Origin: Acidimicrobiaceae bacterium
Lineage (GTDB): Bacteria > Actinomycetota > Acidimicrobiia > Acidimicrobiales > Palsa-688
Length of the DNA stretch: 40,234 nucleotides
Assembly (NCBI GenBank): GCA_003166025.1
Contig: PMWT01000101.1
Span: 21,890-62,123, forward strand
Direction of reading: 5' to 3'
Of the stretch, positions 14,585 through 35,072 are shown piece by piece (the first letter of the stretch is position 1; every line of letters starts with the position of its first letter). Below the pieces are notes generated by a model that searched no databases, had not been told where the DNA came from, and saw nothing but the letters and a program-made list of their open reading frames with translations. The position numbers were made by a program, and so were the translations under genes.

Positions 14585-15325
14585 TCAGGCGGGCGTGGCC
14601 CGGGGTGCCCGGTCCAGGGCGGAAGCGGCCAGGGAGCCGCCGATGACCGCCTCTGCCACGTCGACGAGGCGCAGGTTGTGGTTGCGGGCATGGTTGCGCA
14701 GCGCCGAGAACGCCTGCTGCATGGTGAGGTTTTCCCTTTCGGCCACCATTCCCTTGGCCTGTTCGATGACGATCCGGCTGTTAAGGGCGTTCTGGAGCTG
14801 CTGGTTGACCACCTTGGCTTCGAGCGTGGCCCGGTGCTGGAGGATGGCGATGGTGGCGACATCGGCGAGGGCCTGGGCGGCCTCGACATCGGCCGCTTGC
14901 ATCTCGCCCGTCTCGACGTGGAAAAGGTTTAGAGCACCGATGACAGTGCCCCGCAGGCGCATCGGCAAGGCCTGCACGGAGTGGAACCCGGCGGCCAGGG
15001 CCTCGGAGGCGAACCGCGGCCATAGGGTGTTCGTGCCGGCGAGGTCCTGGTTTTCGACGGGCTTGCCGCTGCGGTAGCAGTCCAGGCATGGACCTTCCTC
15101 GGACTGCAGCTCGAAAAGTTCGAGGACCCGCATGGCCTCGCTGGACGACGCCATCACGCGTAGCTCGCCGTCCGGGCCCGCCAACATGAGGCCCGCCGCA
15201 CCGATGTCGAGCACGTCGACACAACGGTCCGCCAACCTGGTCAGCAGTTCGACTACGTCGAAGTCGGCCACGAGCGTGTCGGCCAACTCGACCAGCGTCC
15301 GGGCGAAAAGCGTCTGTTTGGCCAT
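14585..15325 (-). CDS. GAF-ANTAR antitermination regulator 1
   Basis: 246 residues from ATG 15325 (AGAGG upstream); a GTG at 15340 extends it by five residues. The GAF domain (about 15-165) senses a small ligand or redox state (GPCLDCYRSGKPVENQDL, then GFHSVQALPMRLRGTVIGALNLF). The C-terminal ANTAR domain (about 180-235: NSRIVIEQAKGMVAERENLT, then FSALRNHARNHNLRLVDVAE) binds paired hairpins in target RNAs and blocks termination. It belongs to the same leftward set as the second GAF-ANTAR gene but is separated by 124 bases that carry a small AT-rich tandem repeat, so it may have its own promoter. Confidence 0.9.
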   Translation of the reverse strand: MAKQTLFARTLVELADTLVADFDVVELLTRLADRCVDVLDIGAAGLMLAGPDGELRVMASSSEAMRVLELFELQSEEGPCLDCYRSGKPVENQDLAGTNTLWPRFASEALAAGFHSVQALPMRLRGTVIGALNLFHVETGEMQAADVEAAQALADVATIAILQHRATLEAKVVNQQLQNALNSRIVIEQAKGMVAERENLTMQQAFSALRNHARNHNLRLVDVAEAVIGGSLAASALDRAPRATPA

Positions 15326-15371
15326 CGGACCTCTGATCACCTCGTCATCCTCACTGGACCGCGAAGGGCGG

Positions 15372-15449: not shown

Positions 15450-16196
15450 TCACGATCCGCGGTTTGTCCCACCACTGGCGGCGTCGAAACGAAGCTGCCG
15501 GTCCACCACCTCTTTGCCCACCTGGGCGAGGGAACGGTCGTTGCCGAAGGCGTACGCCCGCAGGCGGACCAACGCCTCGTGCACGCTCACCCCGAGCTGA
15601 GCGGCGACCATGCCGGCGGCCTGGTGCACCACGTAATGGAAGTCAGCGCCCGCTCCCAAAGCGGAGGCTAGCTTCCCCGGCGGCGCGTTGGCCTGCAAGA
15701 CGAGTACGGCCTGGGCGGCGACGTCCGCCATGACCAGGGCATCAGCGTGCTGGTCGTCGCTGAGAGGCCCTACCTGGTCGCAGCACAGGTTGAGAGCCCC
15801 CAGCCGGACCGATCCCACCTGGAGCGGGAAGCCGAACACGGCCCGCACGCCCCCGGCGATGGCCGGAGGAGAAAACGCCAACCACCGGGGTGTCTCGGGC
15901 CGGGCCAGATCGGGCTCGAGCACCGGCCAGTCCTGGCGGTAGGCGTCCACGCACGGGCCCTCGCCCAGGGCGTACTGGAGTTGCTCGATGAGGTCGCTCA
16001 TCTCGTTAGTGGTGCACAGCGAACCTTGAGCGACGTCGGCGGCCATCAGCATTATGCCGGCACCGCTCGTGCCGGTGACCTCGGCGCACACCTGGCACAG
16101 CCGCTTGGTGCCGAAAGCGCCGTCGCCGCCGCCCACGAGTAGGCCGAGGATCCGTTCCCGCCGTTCGCCGCCCACTGGCTGCTCACCGCCCCCCAC
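15450..16196 (-). CDS. GAF-ANTAR antitermination regulator 2
   Basis: 248 residues. The GAF domain (about 20-170) has LQYALGEGPCVDAYRQDWPV and AVFGFPLQVGSVRLGALNLC. The ANTAR domain (about 185-240) reads VVHQAAGMVAAQLGVSVHEALVRLRAYAF and so on, with the AxGM signature shared by the family. It begins 15 bases after the STAS gene stop, so the two form an operon. An STAS protein next to GAF-ANTAR RNA binders links partner-switching to RNA-level control. The two GAF-ANTAR proteins are clearly divergent paralogues. Confidence 0.88.
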   Translation of the reverse strand: MGGGEQPVGGERRERILGLLVGGGDGAFGTKRLCQVCAEVTGTSGAGIMLMAADVAQGSLCTTNEMSDLIEQLQYALGEGPCVDAYRQDWPVLEPDLARPETPRWLAFSPPAIAGGVRAVFGFPLQVGSVRLGALNLCCDQVGPLSDDQHADALVMADVAAQAVLVLQANAPPGKLASALGAGADFHYVVHQAAGMVAAQLGVSVHEALVRLRAYAFGNDRSLAQVGKEVVDRQLRFDAASGGTNRGS

Positions 16197-16211: not shown

Positions 16212-16769
16212 TCATCCGCTCTCAGCCAGCCCTTCGACGCTCACCGCCCCGCCTCCCAGGTCGATGGCCGCCCCGCCGACCCGGGCAGGGATGTGCTCAG
16301 GTTCCCGAGGGGACGGGGCGGTCGGTCCGCCGCCCCTCCCGGCGGGTGGCACCGCTACCCAGGTGGCCAGCGCCTCCGCTCTCTCATCGCTCGCCAGTTC
16401 GGTGCTCTCAACCGCCGTCCCGTGGCTGGGGCCGAGGAGGCCGCTCAAGCCGCAGGCAAGCGCCACCCGCCCGACGGGAGCCGACGGCGACCGGACTGTC
16501 AACGACCGGGACCGCTGCCGCAGGAAGTCCCGGGCCCGGACTATGACCCCGAGCGTCGAGGCGGCCATGAACGTGACTTGGCTCATATCGAGGACCAGCC
16601 CGGCGCTGTCCAGGGCAATGGCACGGGCCAAGGTCAGGCATAGAGCATCGTCGGTGGAGAGGTCGTGCTCCCCCACCAGCCAGACGATGATCGGGCTCGC
16701 TTCAGTTTCGTTCCGCCTCGAGGTAGGTCGGTCGGAGACGGTGAAGAAAGAAGATCCGAGAAGGGCCAT
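16212..16769 (-). CDS. STAS-domain protein (anti-anti-sigma-like)
   Basis: 185 residues. An STAS fold lies at about 25-120 (IIVWLVGEHDLSTDDALCLT, then LVLDMSQVTFMAASTLGV). The remaining tail is low in hydrophobics and rich in Pro and Gly. In classic anti-anti-sigma factors the motif is FMDSSGLGV and the first Ser is phosphorylated by a switch kinase. Here it reads FMAASTLGV, so the Asp and the acceptor Ser are both Ala. The protein may be locked in one state or use the next Ser. ATG 16769 follows GGCAGGAG. The transcript carries the type A leader described separately and continues into GAF-ANTAR 2. Confidence 0.82.
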   Translation of the reverse strand: MALLGSSFFTVSDRPTSRRNETEASPIIVWLVGEHDLSTDDALCLTLARAIALDSAGLVLDMSQVTFMAASTLGVIVRARDFLRQRSRSLTVRSPSAPVGRVALACGLSGLLGPSHGTAVESTELASDERAEALATWVAVPPAGRGGGPTAPSPREPEHIPARVGGAAIDLGGGAVSVEGLAESG

Positions 16770-16886
16770 GGCTCTCCTGCCTCAGGCTGTGCGAAAAGGT
16801 CGCGTTACCAGGGTCTGGAGTACCGCCCCCGACCAGCTTATGCCAGCCCGACACGTCGGGGCTTTTGTCGTGTCCCCCTGACCGTA
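16770..16886 (-). ncRNA. Structured leader, type A copy 1 (upstream of STAS-ANTAR)
   Basis: On the minus strand a -10-like TACGGT (16881-16886), in the conserved context AAAAGGTG, is followed by GACACGAC and a GC stem with ACGTGTCGG inside. A sub-hairpin GCTGG / CTGGT comes next. The core hairpin (16802-16826) has outer stem GCGGTA / TAACGC, a CT bulge and tip CCAG-ACC-CTGG. A ribosome binding site and the STAS start follow. Two further copies (27083-27197 and 34935-35072) keep these parts, and the sub-hairpin varies by paired changes. Orientation toward a gene and position after a promoter-like box argue for a cis-regulatory RNA. I know no family matching it. Confidence 0.6.
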
Positions 16887-19983: not shown

Positions 19984-20071
19984 CTGGTAAGATGGCTAGT
20001 TCTTAGGCGTTGCTCCGGACCCCGGTAGCGCATGCGACCCGAACGTGCCTACCAAGGGTGGTGTTTGTGCA
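19984..20071 (+). ncRNA. Structured leader, type B copy 1 (upstream of lemA)
   Basis: Extended -10 TGG-TAAGAT (hexamer 19988-19993) is followed 13 bases later by the core hairpin at 20007-20031: outer stem GCGTTG / TAGCGC, CT bulge, tip CCGG-ACC-CCGG. Then come a conserved ACGTG, the ribosome binding site AAGGGTGGTG and the lemA ATG at 20072. Bases GCGCA at the end of the core can instead pair with TGTGC just before the start codon, which would compete with the core stem. Copies at 27328-27407 and 29227-29307 keep all these parts. Confidence 0.65.
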
Positions 20072-20719
20072 ATGCCCAGTTTGCTTATTGTTGCCGTAGT
20101 CGTTGTCGCCTTGCTCTGTCTCGGCGGGCTTGCTTTCAACGGCCTGGTCCGCCGGCGCAACCGCGTCCAGGAAGCCTGGTCGGAGATAGACGTCGAACTG
20201 AAGCGCCGACATGACCTCATCCCCAACCTGGTAGAAACCGTAAAGGGTTACGCCTCCCACGAAAGCAAGACTTTCGAAGCCGTAACAGCAGCGCGCGCCG
20301 GTGCGGTGAGCGCCGGGGCCACGGGCGACCCTGCCAAGGTCGGGGCGGCAGAAAACGTGCTCTCCCAGACGCTGCGCTCGCTTTTCGCCGTGTCGGAAAA
20401 CTATCCGCAACTGCGCGCCGTTGAGACTTTCCTTCAGCTCCAGGAACAGCTCACTGCCACCGAGGACAAGCTCGAGTACGCCCGCCGTTTCTATAACACC
20501 AGTGGACGGGACTACAACATCGCGCTGCAGAGCTTCCCACGGAACCTGTTGGCGGGGCCGTTCGGGTTCCATGCCGTCGCTTTCTTTCAGACCGACGAGG
20601 CCGAGCGCCAAGTCCCCGAAGTCAACTTCACAGGCCCGCCCAGCGCGACCACGTCCAATGGTTCATCGGCTCCTTCCGCCCCTCCGGTCTCGACCGGGTC
20701 GGGCCCTCCGACGGCTTGA
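20072..20719 (+). CDS. lemA: LemA family protein
   Basis: 215 residues. One N-terminal membrane span (LLIVAVVVVALLCLGGLAF) leads to a cytoplasmic or surface helical bundle with the family signature NRVQEAWSEIDVELKRRHDL followed by IPNLVETVKGYASHE, and the terminal ENKLEYARRFYN-type motif (here EDKLEYARRFYNTSGRDYN). The Ser/Pro-rich tail is extra. LemA proteins are usually encoded next to an HtpX-type protease, as here (11-base gap), and are linked to membrane protein quality control. The start at ATG 20072 is set by AAGGGTGG and by the conserved leader. An in-frame GTG at 20045 would run through the leader. Confidence 0.95.
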   Translation: MPSLLIVAVVVVALLCLGGLAFNGLVRRRNRVQEAWSEIDVELKRRHDLIPNLVETVKGYASHESKTFEAVTAARAGAVSAGATGDPAKVGAAENVLSQTLRSLFAVSENYPQLRAVETFLQLQEQLTATEDKLEYARRFYNTSGRDYNIALQSFPRNLLAGPFGFHAVAFFQTDEAERQVPEVNFTGPPSATTSNGSSAPSAPPVSTGSGPPTA

Positions 20720-20730
20720 GCTGAGCGCCG

Positions 20731-21675
20731 ATGTACGAGCAGATAGCGCGCAATAAACGGCGAACTGCGGCCTGCGTCCTGTTGTTCTTTGGGGTGTGGG
20801 TGGGGATCGGGGCGCTGGTCGGGTTCCTATGGGCCGAGGTGTCCCGGGCGCCTTCAGGGCCGAGCCCGGGCGTCGGGGGCGACATGACGGTGGGCCTGGC
20901 CGTGGCCGGCGCCTTCGCCCTGCTCGGCATCGCCTTCTCTTTCACCACGGGCAAACGTCTGGTACTTGCGGTATCGGGGGCCCGCCCCGCCGACCCCGAG
21001 CAATATCGCCAACTCCACGACCTGGTCGAAGCCCTGGCCCTCGGGGAGGGCTTTGCCAAGCCCGATGTCTACGTCATCGACGACCCCTCGCCCAACGCTT
21101 TCGCCACCGGCATGAGCCCCCGGCACGCCGCCATCACGGTAACGACAGGCCTACTGTCGATAATGGACCGCGAAGAGCTCGAGGGCGTCTTGTCTCACGA
21201 AATGAGCCACATAAAGAACTACGACGTGCGCCTCCTGCTTATCGTCAGTACCCTTATCGGCCTGGCCGGCCTGTTGGCCAGCCTGGTGTGGCGTTCGGTG
21301 TTCTTCATGCGTGGTCGGGGACGCCAGGCGGGCCAGTTCATGGTGATCGTGTTCGGCGCCGGAGCTCTCTTAGCCGTCGTCGCTTGCATCTTCGGTCCGC
21401 TGGTCCGTTTGGCCCTGTCCCGGCGACGGGAATCGCTGGCCGACGTGAGCGGCGTCGAGCTGACCCGCAACCCAGTTGGGCTGGTCAGTGCCCTGAAGAA
21501 GCTCCAAGCCAATGACAAGCCGTTCGTCAAGTTCAACCACGCCACGGCGGCGATGTGCATCGATGACCCGCTCCAGCACCACGAAGGCCGGTTCCACCAC
21601 CTTTTCGATACCCACCCCCCGATCGCTGAGCGGATAGCGGCCCTGGAGCAGCTGTCCTACGCCCGAGCGGCATGA
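20731..21675 (+). CDS. M48-family membrane zinc protease (HtpX-like)
   Basis: 314 residues, M48B peptidase. Two N-terminal spans (about 13-35 and 51-72), zinc motif HEMSH at 156-160 within LEGVLSHEMSHIKNYDVR, then two more spans (about 167-187 and 205-232). The third zinc ligand Glu lies in RRRESLADVSGVELTRNP. A substrate-loop motif HPPIAERIAALEQL is near the end. The enzyme degrades damaged membrane proteins from the cytoplasmic side. It sits in the operon lemA, this gene, PRC-barrel, which is controlled by the type B leader. Confidence 0.94.
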   Translation: MYEQIARNKRRTAACVLLFFGVWVGIGALVGFLWAEVSRAPSGPSPGVGGDMTVGLAVAGAFALLGIAFSFTTGKRLVLAVSGARPADPEQYRQLHDLVEALALGEGFAKPDVYVIDDPSPNAFATGMSPRHAAITVTTGLLSIMDREELEGVLSHEMSHIKNYDVRLLLIVSTLIGLAGLLASLVWRSVFFMRGRGRQAGQFMVIVFGAGALLAVVACIFGPLVRLALSRRRESLADVSGVELTRNPVGLVSALKKLQANDKPFVKFNHATAAMCIDDPLQHHEGRFHHLFDTHPPIAERIAALEQLSYARAA

Positions 21676-21724: not shown

Positions 21725-22405
21725 ATGAGCGGACCGACAGACTTTACGATCGGGAGCGAGGTTTCCTGCATCGACGGTGCCTGTGGCGAGCTGAGACGCG
21801 TGGTCATCGACCCCGTGGCTCGTGCCCTGACCCACCTAGTGATCGAACCGAAGCACGGCCGGCAAAAAGGCCACCTGGTACCGATCAACATCGCCGCCTC
21901 GACGACCGGCGGCATCAGGCTCGCCTGCACCACGGCTGAGTTCGAAAAGTTCGATGAAGCAGAAGAGACGCAGTTCATCCCGGGCGGGGACGCGCAGTTC
22001 GGCTACGCCCAGGAACATATGGTCTCGTGGCCCTACTATGGCGTGGGAATGGGGTCGTACGGTCTTGAGAGCCTGAGCCGGGGCACGGGCATGGGGGGGA
22101 GCACGGGCGTACCCAGTGGCCAAGTGATCACCAATGACCGCGTACCCGTGGGAGAGGTCGAGGTGCGCCGAGGCGAGCACGTGTTCGCCACCGACGGCGC
22201 CATCGGGCAAGTGCAGGGACTGGTCGTCCATCCCGGCGACCACTGCGTCACCCACGTCCTACTTGACGAGGGTCATCTCTGGGGCCAAAAACGGGTGGCC
22301 ATCCCTATAGGCGCCGTCAAGGACGTCGAAGACGGCGTACGGCTCAACTTGACCAAGGACGAGGTGCGCGACCTGCCTGCGGTAGAGGTCGACGAGCGGG
22401 ATTGA
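21725..22405 (+). CDS. Tandem PRC-barrel protein, copy 1
   Basis: 226 residues with two PRC-barrel domains. The first is at about 6-55 (FTIGSEVSCIDGACGELRRV, ending HLVPI) and the second at about 145-200 (VRRGEHVFATDGAIGQVQGL, ending RVAIPIGAVKDV). A flexible Gly-rich linker lies between them. PRC-barrel proteins act as docking or RNA/protein-binding modules. No catalytic residues are expected. A close paralogue lies at 34131-34799. Both sit downstream of leaders of the same RNA family, this one as third gene of the lemA operon. ATG after AAAGGAAG. Confidence 0.88.
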   Translation: MSGPTDFTIGSEVSCIDGACGELRRVVIDPVARALTHLVIEPKHGRQKGHLVPINIAASTTGGIRLACTTAEFEKFDEAEETQFIPGGDAQFGYAQEHMVSWPYYGVGMGSYGLESLSRGTGMGGSTGVPSGQVITNDRVPVGEVEVRRGEHVFATDGAIGQVQGLVVHPGDHCVTHVLLDEGHLWGQKRVAIPIGAVKDVEDGVRLNLTKDEVRDLPAVEVDERD

Positions 22406-27014: not shown

Positions 27015-27083
27015 TCAGATCCCCCCCCAAAGAAACCGCGTTGACCGCGGAACAGAGGCGAAGAAAGAACCGACGTCGACCAT
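27015..27083 (-). CDS. Micro-ORF after type A leader, 22 residues
   Basis: ATG 27083 sits at the same place relative to the type A leader as the STAS start does at 16769, and the first residues (MVDVGSFFASVPR) resemble those of the STAS protein (MALLGSSFFTVSDR). The frame stops after 22 codons. Either a leader peptide, or the decayed N-terminus of a duplicated gene. Confidence 0.35.
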   Translation of the reverse strand: MVDVGSFFASVPRSTRFLWGGI

Positions 27084-27197
27084 GGCACGCTCCCACCGCA
27101 GGCATTGTGATGTCGCTACCAGGGTCTGGAGTACCGCCCCCAGCCAGTGCGGCTGGCCCAACACGTCCGGGGCTGTTATCGCGTCACCACAATTGTA
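27084..27197 (-). ncRNA. Structured leader, type A copy 2
   Basis: -10-like TACAAT (27192-27197) in context AAAAGGTG. Next come GACGCGAT, the GCCCC/GGGGC stem with ACGTGTTGG, and a sub-hairpin GCCAG / CTGGC. The core (27115-27140) has tip CCAG-ACC-CTGG. The sub-hairpin differs from copy 1 (GCTGG / CTGGT) by paired changes. The outer core stem is weaker here than in copies 1 and 3. Confidence 0.55.
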
Positions 27198-27234
27198 CAC
27201 CTTTTGGGACGGTGGCGGCAGCAGGCAGTACTGG

Positions 27235-27327
27235 CTACCCACGCCGTTTGGCCTCGCCTTTTGTAGCAAAAACCACACTACTCAGCAGGCCGACAGGGAT
27301 GAGGGCCCCGATCACCCATATAAGCAT
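27235..27327 (-). CDS. Small membrane peptide after type B leader, 30 residues
   Basis: ATG 27327 with binding site AAGGGTGGTG in the same position as for lemA. It encodes 30 residues: MLIWVIGALIPVGLLSSVVF forms one membrane span, then the tail ATKGEAKRRG is positively charged, so an N-out/C-in single-pass peptide is expected. Its first codons resemble those of the micro-ORF before the SPFH gene (VLIY against MLIW). The presence of a full leader, good binding site and clean span-plus-charge layout makes it a credible gene despite its size. It may regulate a membrane protease or complex; function unknown. Confidence 0.5.
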   Translation of the reverse strand: MLIWVIGALIPVGLLSSVVFATKGEAKRRG

Positions 27328-27407
27328 TGCATCAACACCACCCTTGAGGCACGTCTAAAAGAACATGCGCTACCGGGGTCCGGAGCAACGCCGAGGAACT
27401 CATCCTA
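27328..27407 (-). ncRNA. Structured leader, type B copy 2
   Basis: Extended -10 TGG-TAGGAT (27402-27407), ten bases, then the core hairpin (27367-27391) with sequence identical to lemA copy 1 over all 25 positions. ACGTGCC and AAGGGTGGTG lead to the 30-residue ORF. GCAT at the core edge can pair with ATGC before the start codon. Confidence 0.6.
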
Positions 27408-27583
27408 CCACCGCTGGGCCTGGGTTTTCGCCGTTAAACGGAAGCGAAGAAAGTACGTGAGCGGCAGAAGATCTTGATGAGCCGGCCCCGCCAGGTACCC
27501 ATATAACGATAGGCTTTTACAGGTCTCGCTCACGTCCGGGCACTCCCGCCCCGACGCCAAAGCAGGCAGATCGGGAGGCCCAC

Positions 27584-28222: not shown

Positions 28223-29071
28223 TCAGGTGCCCTTCGGCTCGGGCGGCACCTCTGCGCCTTTCCCCCTGCCGTTGGCCGAGGGTGGAGGCAGCTTGGCCAT
28301 GGCGCCCGTCTCTCGGGACAGGAAGGCGCCGATCTCTTGGATCGTGCTCATGAGCGGACCAGGGAAGACCACCGTCGTGTTCTTGTCGACACCGATCTCG
28401 ATCAGGGTCTGCAGGTTGCGGAGCTGGAGCGCCAGCGGGTGGACCATCATGATGTCGGACGCTTCCCCGAGAGCGGTAGCGGCCAGGGACTCGCCTTCTG
28501 CCGCGATGATCTTGGCCCGCTTCTCGCGCTCCGCCTCCGCCTGACGGGCCATGGCCCGCTTCATCGTGTCCGGTAACTGGATGTCCTTTAGCTCCACCAG
28601 GGTCACGAGCACGCCCCAATCCGCGGTTTGGATGTCGAGGATCTCCTTGATGTCCACGTTGATGCGGTCGGTCTCCGCCAGCATCTCGTCGAGGGTGTGC
28701 TGGCCCACGACCTTGCGCAGCGTTGTCTGGGCGATCTGGTTGATCGCGGCCTCGATATTCTCGATGGCGATGACCGACTTGGTCGCGTCCACGACGCGGT
28801 AGTAGGACACGGCCGACACGTCAACGCTCACGTTGTCCCGGGTGATGATGCCCTGGGACTGGATCGGCATCGTAACGATCCGGAAGGACACCTTGCGCAG
28901 CACGTTGACGAACGGCACGATAGCGACAAGTCCCGGGCCCTTTTCACCGGTGACCCGGCCGAAGCGGAAAACGACCCCCTTTTCGTACTGCTGGACTATG
29001 TGAAAAGCGGACGCGAACACGATCAGCGCAACGACCACCACAACGACGATGGCCACGACTACGCCGGTCAT
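28223..29071 (-). CDS. SPFH/band-7 protein (slipin, stomatin-like)
   Basis: 282 residues. One N-terminal span (VVVAIVVVVVVALIVFASAF) is followed by the PHB domain: VQQYEKGVVFRFGRVTGEKG, GPGLVAIVPFVNVLRKVSFR, then NVSVDVSAVSYYRVVDATKS and the helix QAEAEREKRAKIIAAEGESL. This is the bacterial slipin type, which forms oligomeric membrane microdomain scaffolds and usually pairs with an NfeD-type protease partner. No NfeD gene is next to it. Instead, its ATG overlaps the stop of a 52-residue ORF (ATGA) that follows a type B leader, so translation of the two is coupled. Confidence 0.93.
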   Translation of the reverse strand: MTGVVVAIVVVVVVALIVFASAFHIVQQYEKGVVFRFGRVTGEKGPGLVAIVPFVNVLRKVSFRIVTMPIQSQGIITRDNVSVDVSAVSYYRVVDATKSVIAIENIEAAINQIAQTTLRKVVGQHTLDEMLAETDRINVDIKEILDIQTADWGVLVTLVELKDIQLPDTMKRAMARQAEAEREKRAKIIAAEGESLAATALGEASDIMMVHPLALQLRNLQTLIEIGVDKNTTVVFPGPLMSTIQEIGAFLSRETGAMAKLPPPSANGRGKGAEVPPEPKGT

Positions 29072-29226
29072 GTGCGCTCAGCTCCGGGTTGCGGCGCACC
29101 TTTGCCGAGGCGACCACGAGGGACAGGCCCGGCCCACGTAACCGCCGCCCAGGGACGCAAGCTGTAGCCCTTTAGAGTTCCCTCCAGGCCGAGGACGACG
29201 TCATGGCGGGCTTGGTAGATGAGCAC
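29068..29226 (-). CDS. Upstream ORF coupled to the SPFH gene, 52 residues
   Basis: GTG 29226 follows AAGGGTGGTG and the type B leader exactly as in the other two copies, and the stop overlaps the SPFH start (ATGA). The peptide begins VLIYQARHDVVLGLEG and is Gly/Pro/Arg-rich later, with no membrane span. An in-frame GTG at 29250 lies inside the leader and is less likely. It is either a regulatory leader peptide whose translation opens the SPFH start, or the decayed descendant of a small protein gene like the 30-residue one at 27235-27327. Confidence 0.5.
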   Translation of the reverse strand: MLIYQARHDVVLGLEGTLKGYSLRPWAAVTWAGPVPRGRLGKGAPQPGAERT

Positions 29227-29307
29227 TGCGTCAACACCACCCTTGTTCACGTGTTAGGGAGCGCAGACGCCACCGGGGTCCGGAGCAACGCTGACCAGCT
29301 CACGCTA
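29227..29307 (-). ncRNA. Structured leader, type B copy 3 (upstream of SPFH)
   Basis: Extended -10 TGG-TAGCGT (29302-29307) with a -35-like TTGTCA 16 bases upstream. Core 29267-29291: stem GCGTTG / TGGCGT (pairs kept by G-T exchange), CT bulge, tip CCGG-ACC-CCGG. ACGTG and AAGGGTGGTG follow. GCGTC at the core edge can pair perfectly with GACGC directly before the start codon, whereas copy 1 uses GCGCA with TGTGC: a compensatory change supporting an alternative pairing. Confidence 0.65.
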
Positions 29308-29371
29308 CCACCGCTACCGCCGTTGACAAGACCGCCCTGCGGGCCCGTGTGACCACTGCTGCGGTGGTCCC

Positions 29372-31019: not shown

Positions 31020-31064
31020 CAAAGTTCGCCGCGGACCTCTACACGGGAGGCCCGATGGTCCCAG

Positions 31065-31123
31065 GCGATATTAGGTCCAAGCGATATTAGGCCCAAGCGA
31101 TATTAGGCCCAAGCGATATTAGG
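31065..31123. repeat. Four 16-bp direct repeats with AT-rich core
   Basis: GCGATATTAGG recurs at 31065, 31081, 31097 and 31113 with exact 16-base period and spacer TCCAA or CCCAA. The last copy runs into the stop codon of the exported-protein gene on the minus strand. The spacing is not a multiple of the 10.5-base helical turn. Could be a protein-binding array or simple slippage. Confidence 0.85.
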
Positions 31124-31640: not shown

Positions 31641-32153
31641 CTTCCTCTACCTTTCTTTGTTTGTCTTTCCAGACCGGCCCGCCTATAGTGTTCAGAGTTC
31701 TGACCATCTCGGCGTAGCCGGGTAAGCATTGACGCGGCCCAACATGTAGCGGGGGAGCCAAATGAAAGGGCCCTAAAACTAAGCGTTTTGTTCATAAATC
31801 AGCTTTGGGCCCGTCCGAGGGACGTTCGGCTTCACGGGTCATGCGACCAGGGTCCCCTCGCGGGGCCAAGGAAGGCACGGTAACCAAAGCTTGCTAGCCG
31901 CCAAGGAAATTATTTTGCCTCTCTCGGCACCGGTCGACCTTGGCTTAGCACTATGGCCGTCACCAGGGACTGGAGCAACGAGGCACTCGAAGGTGCTCTT
32001 GGCGCTATCTTACAGGGCCCAGGGCGCAAACCGCACGACAAAGCGCCAACCTTCCGGGTCGGGGGCACCGAGGAAAGAGCTTCCCCGGTCCTAAAGCGAC
32101 GGCACGAGTGTCCCGACTAAACGAATTAGCCACAAGGCACCGATGGGGGAACA
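31641..32153. other. Intergenic region with type C leader and AT-rich hairpin
   Basis: No gene. It contains the type C leader (31958-32012, minus strand). A long-loop inverted repeat GGGCCC (about 31770 and 31810) encloses AAAACTAAGCGTTTT, a palindrome with possible terminator function. An ACTATAGG -10-like site near 31682-31689 lies on the minus strand, closer to the exported-protein start. Confidence 0.45.
31958..32012 (-). ncRNA. Structured leader, divergent type C copy
   Basis: -10-like TAAGAT (32007-32012) is followed by a small hairpin (GCAC, loop CTTCG, AGTGC region) and then the core at 31958-31980: stem CGTTG / TGACG, CT bulge, tip CCAG-TCC-CTGG. The stem pairs are kept although several bases differ from types A and B. 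The nearest gene in this direction is the duplicated-domain exported protein, 318 bases away, so the link is less sure than for other copies. Confidence 0.4.
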
Positions 32154-34130: not shown

Positions 34131-34799
34131 TCAGTCCGGTTCATCGACTTCCACCGCAGGCAGGTCGCGCACCTCGTCCTTGGTCAGGTTGAGCCGGACG
34201 CCGTCTTCGACGTCCTTGACGGCACTTATGGGTATGGCCACACGCTTTTGGCCCCAGAGATGGCCCTCGTCGAGCAGGACGTGGGTGACAGAATGGTCAC
34301 CGGGATGGACGACCAGTCCCCGCACTCGCCCGATGGCGCCGTCGGTGGCAGATACGTGGTCGCCCCGACGCACCTCGACTTCGCCCTCGGGCACGCTGTC
34401 GTTGGTGACGACCACCGGACCGGGCGCTTGCATGCCCAGGCCCATACCCACACCACCCATGCCGAGTGACCCTACGCCCAACCCGTAGTAGGGCCACGAC
34501 AGCATTTGGTCTTGGCCGTAGCCAAACCGGCCGTTCCCGCCGGGGATGAACTGGGTCACTTCGGCCTGATCGAGCTTTTCGAACTCAGCCGTGGTACATG
34601 CCAGGCTGACCCCGTCGGTGGTCGGGGTAGCCAGGTTTATCGGCACGAGACGGCCTTTTTCTCGGCCGTGCTTCGGTTCGACCACGAGATGGGTGAGCGC
34701 ACGCGCTATGGGGTCGATCACCACGCGTCTCAGCTCCCCGCACGGCCCATCGCTGGAGGACACTTCGCTCCCGATCGTAAACTCTGTCGGTTCGCTCAT
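34131..34799 (-). CDS. Tandem PRC-barrel protein, copy 2
   Basis: 222 residues, clearly paralogous to the protein at 21725-22405 throughout (FTIGSEVSSSDGPCGELRRV against FTIGSEVSCIDGACGELRRV). The divergent part is the Gly/Met-rich linker (GLGVGSLGMGGVGMGLGMQA). Two PRC-barrel domains, no catalytic residues. No strong ribosome binding site, but a type A leader lies 136 bases upstream in the same direction. Convergent with the G1 peptidase gene. Confidence 0.88.
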   Translation of the reverse strand: MSEPTEFTIGSEVSSSDGPCGELRRVVIDPIARALTHLVVEPKHGREKGRLVPINLATPTTDGVSLACTTAEFEKLDQAEVTQFIPGGNGRFGYGQDQMLSWPYYGLGVGSLGMGGVGMGLGMQAPGPVVVTNDSVPEGEVEVRRGDHVSATDGAIGRVRGLVVHPGDHSVTHVLLDEGHLWGQKRVAIPISAVKDVEDGVRLNLTKDEVRDLPAVEVDEPD

Positions 34800-34934: not shown

Positions 34935-35072
34935 AGATCCGGAAAAGGTTTTTGGCACTGTCCTGCCTCAGGCACTGCGAAAGATCGCGTTACCAGGGTC
35001 TGGAGTACCGCCCCCGGCCAGCTCGTACCGGCCCGGCACGTCGGGGAATTTGTCGTGTCCCTCCTAACCTTA
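34935..35072 (-). ncRNA. Structured leader, type A copy 3 (upstream of PRC-barrel copy 2)
   Basis: -10-like TAAGGT (35067-35072) is followed by GGGACACGAC, the CCCCG/CGGGG stem with ACGTGCCGG, and a sub-hairpin GCCGG / CTGGC with loop TACGAG. The core (34987-35011) is identical to copy 1. Then GCGATCTTTCGC and GCCTGAGGC hairpins. Confidence 0.6.

Follow-up and report, generated by a model that had tools for sequence, protein, structure and literature searches.

A family of leader RNAs with a predicted two-state translational switch in Acidimicrobiia

ANTAR domains bind RNA hairpins, and the minimal unit of their targets is one hexaloop, of which G4 is contacted (PMC8934654). The known targets are hairpins whose hexaloop has A at position 1 and G at position 4 (A1 and G4); in Actinobacteria, many of them overlap the ribosome-binding site (Mehta and Ramesh 2021, PMC8164766). 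The published predictions of actinobacterial targets rely on a diverse and weakly scoring motif (bit score ≥15, PMC8164766). Here, we analysed a window (the whole stretch of 40,234 nucleotides under study) from a genome of Acidimicrobiaceae, in which we found seven copies of a leader hairpin, one of them in front of an operon with two GAF-ANTAR genes.

Three of the copies, which we call type B, had been pointed out in an earlier note, and were found as claimed: an extended -10 box, a hairpin 10–13 nt later, a Shine-Dalgarno sequence (SD), and a start codon 38–39 nt past the hairpin core. The leader B1 is encoded on the plus strand, with the -10 box TGGTAAGAT at 19985–19993, the hairpin (P3) at 20006–20032 (42.4 bits), and the SD, assigned by sequence, at 20054–20061 (AAGGGTGG). 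It precedes lemA (20072–20719; PF04011, 7e-56), which is followed on the same strand by genes for an M48 peptidase (20731–21675) and a PRC-barrel protein (21725–22405). The leaders B2 and B3 are on the minus strand, with the -10 boxes TGGTAGGAT (27402–27410) and TGGTAGCGT (29302–29310), and P3 at 27366–27392 and 29266–29292, both retrieved by the core pattern and by the covariance model. All three boxes were assigned by sequence and spacing statistics. The start codons are ATG at 20072 (B1), ATG at 27327 (B2), and GTG at 29226 (B3), each about 10 nt downstream of AAGGGTGG or AAGGGTGGTG.

The gene contexts of the three sites are less varied than the note had suggested. The 30-codon open reading frame after B2 (27235–27327, minus strand), described as a micro-gene, is a lemA remnant that corresponds to the N-terminal membrane segment of a paralogue (tblastn, 55% over 29 aa, 1e-6). 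The 52-codon frame after B3 (29068–29226, minus strand), described as an SPFH-coupled frame, is also a lemA remnant (58% over 36 aa, 2e-9), and overlaps by 4 nt the start of the SPFH/Band 7 gene (28223–29071, minus strand; PF01145, 1e-37). The conserved distance to the start codon had been taken as an argument against a random repeat, and this stands in part: the three copies are duplicated lemA leaders, so their fixed spacing results partly from common descent, whereas the evidence from the family as a whole is independent of these three copies.

The core pattern, allowing up to three mismatches, had six matches in the window and none in 100 shuffled sequences, and chance does not account for the type B leaders. 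The six matches correspond to the three type B sites and to three others previously called type A (at about 16801, 27112, and 34986, minus strand), whose core is the same and which are members of one family with type B. A full-length class A leader, A1, was found at 16800–16874 on the minus strand (89.5 bits with model R2, see below). It contains two further hairpins (P1 and P2), a pseudoknot strand, and P3, and is followed by genes encoding a STAS protein of the anti-anti-sigma type (16212–16769), two GAF-ANTAR proteins (15450–16196, with an ANTAR score just under the Pfam cut-off, and 14585–15340, with 66.6 bits), and YceI, in this order and all on the minus strand for the positions given. 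The two other full-length class A leaders are also on the minus strand: A2 (27111–27185) precedes a short open reading frame (MVDVGSFF...) that is apparently a truncated first gene, and A3 (34985–35059) is upstream of a PRC-barrel gene (34131–34799). The covariance model R1 added a seventh copy, D (31956–31982, minus strand), with a -10-like TAAGAT and a hairpin GCAC...GTGC in front.

The organisation of the window has some further features. B2 and A2 are arranged in tandem at 27060–27410, each followed by a truncated gene start, like leftovers of a duplication. The PRC-barrel genes at 21725–22405 and 34131–34799 form an inverted pair, with arms 77% and 83% alike, one after lemA and the M48 gene behind B1, the other behind A3. 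Close to D, at 31060–31123, a 16-bp unit (CCAAGCGATATTAGGC) is present in head-to-tail copies.

We built the model R1 from 18 genomic copies, and the model R2 (75 positions) for the long class. Together with the pattern search, R1 identified about 24 copies in the genome of the window (E<0.005). It matched 36 of 61 relatives at E≤0.1, and 22 of the 395 genomes of the class Acidimicrobiia, from many families, at E≤0.003. R2 identified full-length leaders in 11 of these 395 genomes, including places outside of its training set (e.g., G262:C406:866-944 at 3e-11); in a sample of 277 genomes from the phylum, it identified none beyond the class. R1 had one match in each of seven genomes outside of the class at E≤0.003, about six above the E-value expectation; for the three of these seven that could be located by the pattern, neither a matching promoter nor a leader context surrounded the core. 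Among named genomes, an exact-pattern scan retrieved 30 stretches, all from metagenome-assembled Actinomycetota, many of them labelled Acidimicrobiaceae, Acidimicrobiia, or Ilumatobacteraceae. The final collection has 148 non-redundant matches from dozens of genera of Acidimicrobiia, including some probable chance matches, certainly so in the mixed class “X”.

The note had recognised no riboswitch, T-box or ribosomal-protein leader in these sites, and our searches agree. Rfam 15 had no match at the gathering threshold anywhere in the window. With permissive thresholds, there was none at E≤10 around B1 and none at E≤1 in eight other loci; at A1 we obtained only Yfr1, with a chance-level E-value of 8. 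T-box and ribosomal-protein leaders were rejected for lack of Rfam matches and for the nature of the downstream genes, which are neither aminoacyl-tRNA or amino-acid genes nor ribosomal protein genes. In open-licence papers we found nothing relevant on the motif, or on leaders of STAS or ANTAR genes in Acidimicrobiia.

P3 is a 27-nt hairpin and the core common to all classes. Its strands read CGUUGCUCC and GGURRCG, and its bulged C (in a CU bulge) and loop GACC are nearly invariant. We analysed covariation in 127 distinct cores. The pair 12–18 is A-U in 45, G-C in 38, and G-U in 34 of them, with 38 double changes (0.3 in shuffled alignments). The pair 6–22 had 13 double changes (6.7 in shuffles), a number reached in none of 1000 shuffles, and the pair 7–21 is standard in 99% of the cores. 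Two details of the earlier description had to be revised. The tip given as CCGG-ACC-CCGG is better described as CCR-[GACCN]-YGG, since the R-Y pair covaries and the loop has 5 nt. The ACGTG thought to follow the hairpin is not conserved across type B leaders as a whole; when B1 is folded, it forms the 3' side of an alternative helix. Recognition of the CsrA type was dropped, as many cores read AGA and lack GGA.

The covariation of the stem bears on the idea that the 5' ends of lemA and STAS genes were merely duplicated and spread without regulatory function. B2, B3, and probably A2 do precede truncated first genes, and class A leaders often travel with the GSSFFTVP codons of otherwise unrelated proteins. 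Yet, the compensatory changes, the conserved spacing, and the presence of the leaders before different genes in many genera, families, and orders make this explanation extremely unlikely. The interpretation of the sites as cis-regulatory 5' leaders is borne out: they are promoter-proximal, have a fixed spacing to the ribosome-binding site and a covarying stem, lack Rfam matches, and were found by covariance-model searches well beyond the source genome, in other genera, families, and orders.

The classes differ in what precedes P3. The long classes, A and E, have P1 (GACACG/CGTGTC) and P2 in front of it. In the 28 sequences of class A, P1 is paired in 98.8% of the cells and P2 in 90.7%. The whole structure had 14 double changes, a value reached in none of 500 shuffles, and 91.6% of the cells were paired, against 32–42% when the structure was slid along the alignment. 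Class E by itself had little covariation, its sequences being too uniform. The P1 loop of the long classes contains a CCC that is complementary to a GGG adjoining P3. This complementarity reaches 96% without variation, and the pseudoknot is therefore plausible rather than proven; we regard it as likely in both classes. Type B, class C, and desaturase leaders keep P3 and have no P1, P2, or pseudoknot, so the common element is one 27-nt hairpin. In three desaturase leaders a GAGC-UUCG-GCUC-like hairpin is found directly before P3, replacing P1 and P2. Seven leaders of a subclass associated with MFS transporters and other genes have a conserved GAGACGCCTGGTTCGGG.AGGACGA-like block 3' of P3, possibly a second RNA element.

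The leaders follow predicted promoters at characteristic distances. In classes A and E, a TAnnnT box was found 5–8 nt 5' of P1 in 57 of 63 leaders (6–7 nt in 52 of them), with GTG in front of it in 42. For type B, the -10 box is 9–13 nt before the core, and seven of the ten boxes follow TGG. Given these spacings, the predicted transcription start is the first base of P1 in classes A and E, or a few bases before P3 in type B, and the hairpins are predicted to lie within the RNA.

Both strands of P3 are also complementary to the downstream ribosome-binding region, which defines an alternative fold, P4. In class C, the first P3 strand (CGTTGCTCC) finds its complement in GGAGCAACG at the SD. The second strand of class E, CCCTGG, is complementary to CCAGGG immediately 5' of the SD, and GGCGTTGC of type B to GCAATGCC across the start codon. 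P4 of B1 is predicted at 20006–20076 (plus strand), where GGCGUUGC would pair with GCAAUGCC over the start codon, and the second P3 strand with a stretch reaching to the SD. We assessed P4 by joining each core to a downstream part taken from a different leader within its class and comparing minimum free energies (2000 permutations). The observed and permuted values were -32.8 and -30.9 in class C and -25.2 and -22.5 in the mixed class, with no permutation as good as the observed set in either case, -25.3 and -23.9 in class E (three as good), -22.2 and -21.1 in class A (14), and -28.8 and -27.6 in type B, the weakest class (43). The effect size per class is modest, and a version of the test based on duplex energies agrees in sum.

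We then compared the energies of the two folds using soft constraints. With the pseudoknot and any bound factor left out of the energies, P4 was favoured over P3 in 109 of 120 leaders; the mean difference was about 7 kcal/mol, and 12 in class C. The mean probability that the SD is unpaired decreased from 0.53–0.62 in P3 to 0.28–0.36 in P4 for classes A, E, C, and the mixed class. For the start codon of type B, the decrease was from 0.50 to 0.15. The exception is B3, where the two folds have about the same energy and P4 leaves the start codon no less accessible. In full-length folds of B1 and A1, P4 was the minimum; z-scores for the whole leaders were weak (-2.3 for B1 and -1.1 for A1). Two mutually exclusive conserved folds at the ribosome-binding site, the functional mark of a riboswitch, were thus found by computation: P3 by covariation and P4 by permutation.

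These results also weigh on two simpler explanations. Stress genes are typical targets of RNA thermometers, and the hairpin is at the predicted 5' end of the transcript, as expected if it were a passive element, either one that shields the mRNA against degradation or a thermometer in which warming melts P4. However, a stabiliser has no need for a conserved loop and bulge, here nearly invariant, and a thermometer requires P4 but no covarying P3, which makes a passive role rather improbable. We regard as very unlikely that the near-palindrome CCRGACCCYGG, 3' of the -10 box, is a DNA operator bound by a transcription factor. The motif does look like an inverted repeat and is promoter-proximal in type B, but its distance from the -10 box varies from 9–13 nt in type B to about 50–60 nt or more in classes A and E, G-U pairs are common in the stem, and the P3 strands pair better with the sequence that follows them than with the corresponding part of other leaders.

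We propose, with a probability of roughly 0.6, that these leaders are an undescribed class of cis-regulatory RNA acting as a two-state translational switch, OFF by default and turned ON by a factor that holds P3. The pairings of P1, P2, and P3, the complementarity behind P4, the position after a predicted promoter, and the gene associations on which the model builds were all established by computation. In one state, the two strands of P3 would pair with each other as a local hairpin, leaving the ribosome-binding site free (ON). In the other, both would pair downstream and bury the SD, or the start codon in type B (OFF). As P4 is predicted to be more stable, the default would be OFF. A factor reading the conserved GACCN loop, the CU bulge, and the stem would then hold P3. 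In classes A and E the module made of P1, P2, and the likely pseudoknot lies directly on P3 and would probably help recognition, and the remaining classes have different hairpins, or none, in this position. Three elements of the model are inferred: the assignment of ON to P3, the direction of control, and the protein nature of the factor.

The genes downstream of the leaders look like a regulon for stress and the envelope, with its own regulators among the members, and the leaders would link these stress and signalling functions. Across the collection, the first gene encodes a STAS protein in 30 cases, a GAF-ANTAR protein in eight, LemA in seven, and a PAS-GGDEF(-EAL) protein in six; others are desaturases, SPFH and CsbD proteins, sigma factors, and MFS transporters. 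A GAF-ANTAR gene is found within 3.5 kb downstream of 26 leaders. Pfam and NCBIfam profiles confirmed fatty-acid desaturases, SPFH, GGDEF-EAL, CsbD, and HlyIII proteins behind leaders. Sigma factors of the SigB/F/G family and an anti-sigma factor antagonist were the best NCBIfam matches of their proteins, just below the curated cut-offs.

Two other features of the gene contexts were observed. The products of class A genes, i.e., the STAS protein at 16212–16769 and those behind six other leaders, share an N-terminal peptide of about MxxxGSSFFTVP. One of the six is a sigma factor, which has this type of N terminus though it is otherwise unlike STAS proteins. The class A leader and the first codons seem to move as one unit, and the RNA element may extend into the stretch that encodes GSSFFTVP. 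Divergent gene pairs, represented by nine leaders of the collection, have a separate leader at each of the two promoters, with cores about 130–260 nt apart. Often, a GAF-ANTAR or STAS gene faces away from a GGDEF-EAL gene in these pairs.

Signalling genes such as those encoding GGDEF-EAL proteins would also be expected downstream if P1, P2, the pseudoknot, and P3 formed an aptamer for a stress metabolite or second messenger, with P4 as the expression platform. The compact and apparently pseudoknotted build, the strong conservation of unpaired bases, and an alternative fold that hides the SD are in line with such a riboswitch. Yet, type B, class C, and desaturase leaders retain P3 in the absence of P1, P2, and the pseudoknot, and the genes have no single metabolic pathway in common. 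We therefore consider a small-molecule riboswitch unlikely. Since no part other than P3 is shared by all classes, a factor reading P3 is likelier than a metabolite read by P1 and P2.

GAF-ANTAR proteins, encoded in the same operons, are the most likely candidates for this P3-holding factor. The genome of the window has 11 ANTAR matches, and all 22 leader-bearing genomes of the class have at least one. Three or more were found in 17 of these 22 genomes and in 28 of the 373 others (Fisher's exact test, 7e-14, for genomes that are related). The median number was four in leader-bearing genomes and one in 38 ANTAR-bearing genomes of a similar size range (p=1e-7, uncorrected for kinship). The same comparison for TetR regulators revealed no difference (p=0.70). 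This is an association and not a proof, and it is expected whether or not these proteins are the factor, because the GAF-ANTAR genes are inside the regulon. Canonical hexaloops with A1 and G4 were not enriched in the leaders (31 observed, 28.9 expected), and the loop of P3 is GACCN. Any binding by ANTAR domains would therefore use an unfamiliar mode. We tentatively suggest, as a possibility with odds well below even, that P3 is a GAF-ANTAR target recognised other than through A1 and G4, and that these sensors directly switch the translation of the entire stress regulon, including that of their own operon, of the anti-anti-sigma factors, and of the SigB/F sigma factors, which would unite partner switching and RNA switching in a single circuit.

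The leader family is real, larger than first described, and absent from Rfam, and its ribosome-binding sites are bistable by prediction. It would add a class of leader RNA missing from Rfam to the Acidimicrobiia, little-studied inhabitants of soil and water that are known mostly from environmental genomes. Two traits are unusual: one switching hairpin is joined to several distinct 5' modules, and a single translational regulon would bring together sigma factors, anti-anti-sigma factors, membrane-stress genes, and candidate RNA-binding sensors. P3 also provides a concrete and strongly conserved candidate target for GAF-ANTAR proteins.

Several known systems resemble these leaders in part. The STAS anti-anti-sigma factors, the SigB/F/G-family sigma factors, and CsbD behind them recall the general stress response of SigB and SigF. 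That system works by protein partner switching and transcription, whereas the leaders would be a layer of RNA; we know of no such shared layer on partner-switching genes. Like the protein-responsive translational leaders, e.g., those of ribosomal proteins, they have a short conserved hairpin near the ribosome-binding site of several operons, but these operons encode stress and signalling functions, and no ribosomal-protein leader of Rfam matches them. With translational and orphan riboswitches they share two exclusive predicted folds, one of which hides the SD, and, in classes A and E, a likely pseudoknotted 5' module. Unlike these, they have no match in Rfam, and only the switching hairpin is shared, joined to varied 5' modules. 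Finally, they resemble the ANTAR-target RNAs of the EutV/NasR type and of the actinobacterial set, which are 5' leader hairpins with an alternative fold, and in Acidimicrobiia an ANTAR gene is often in the operon behind the leader. What sets them apart from the hexaloops of these targets is P3 itself, with its 5-nt GACCN loop and its CU bulge.
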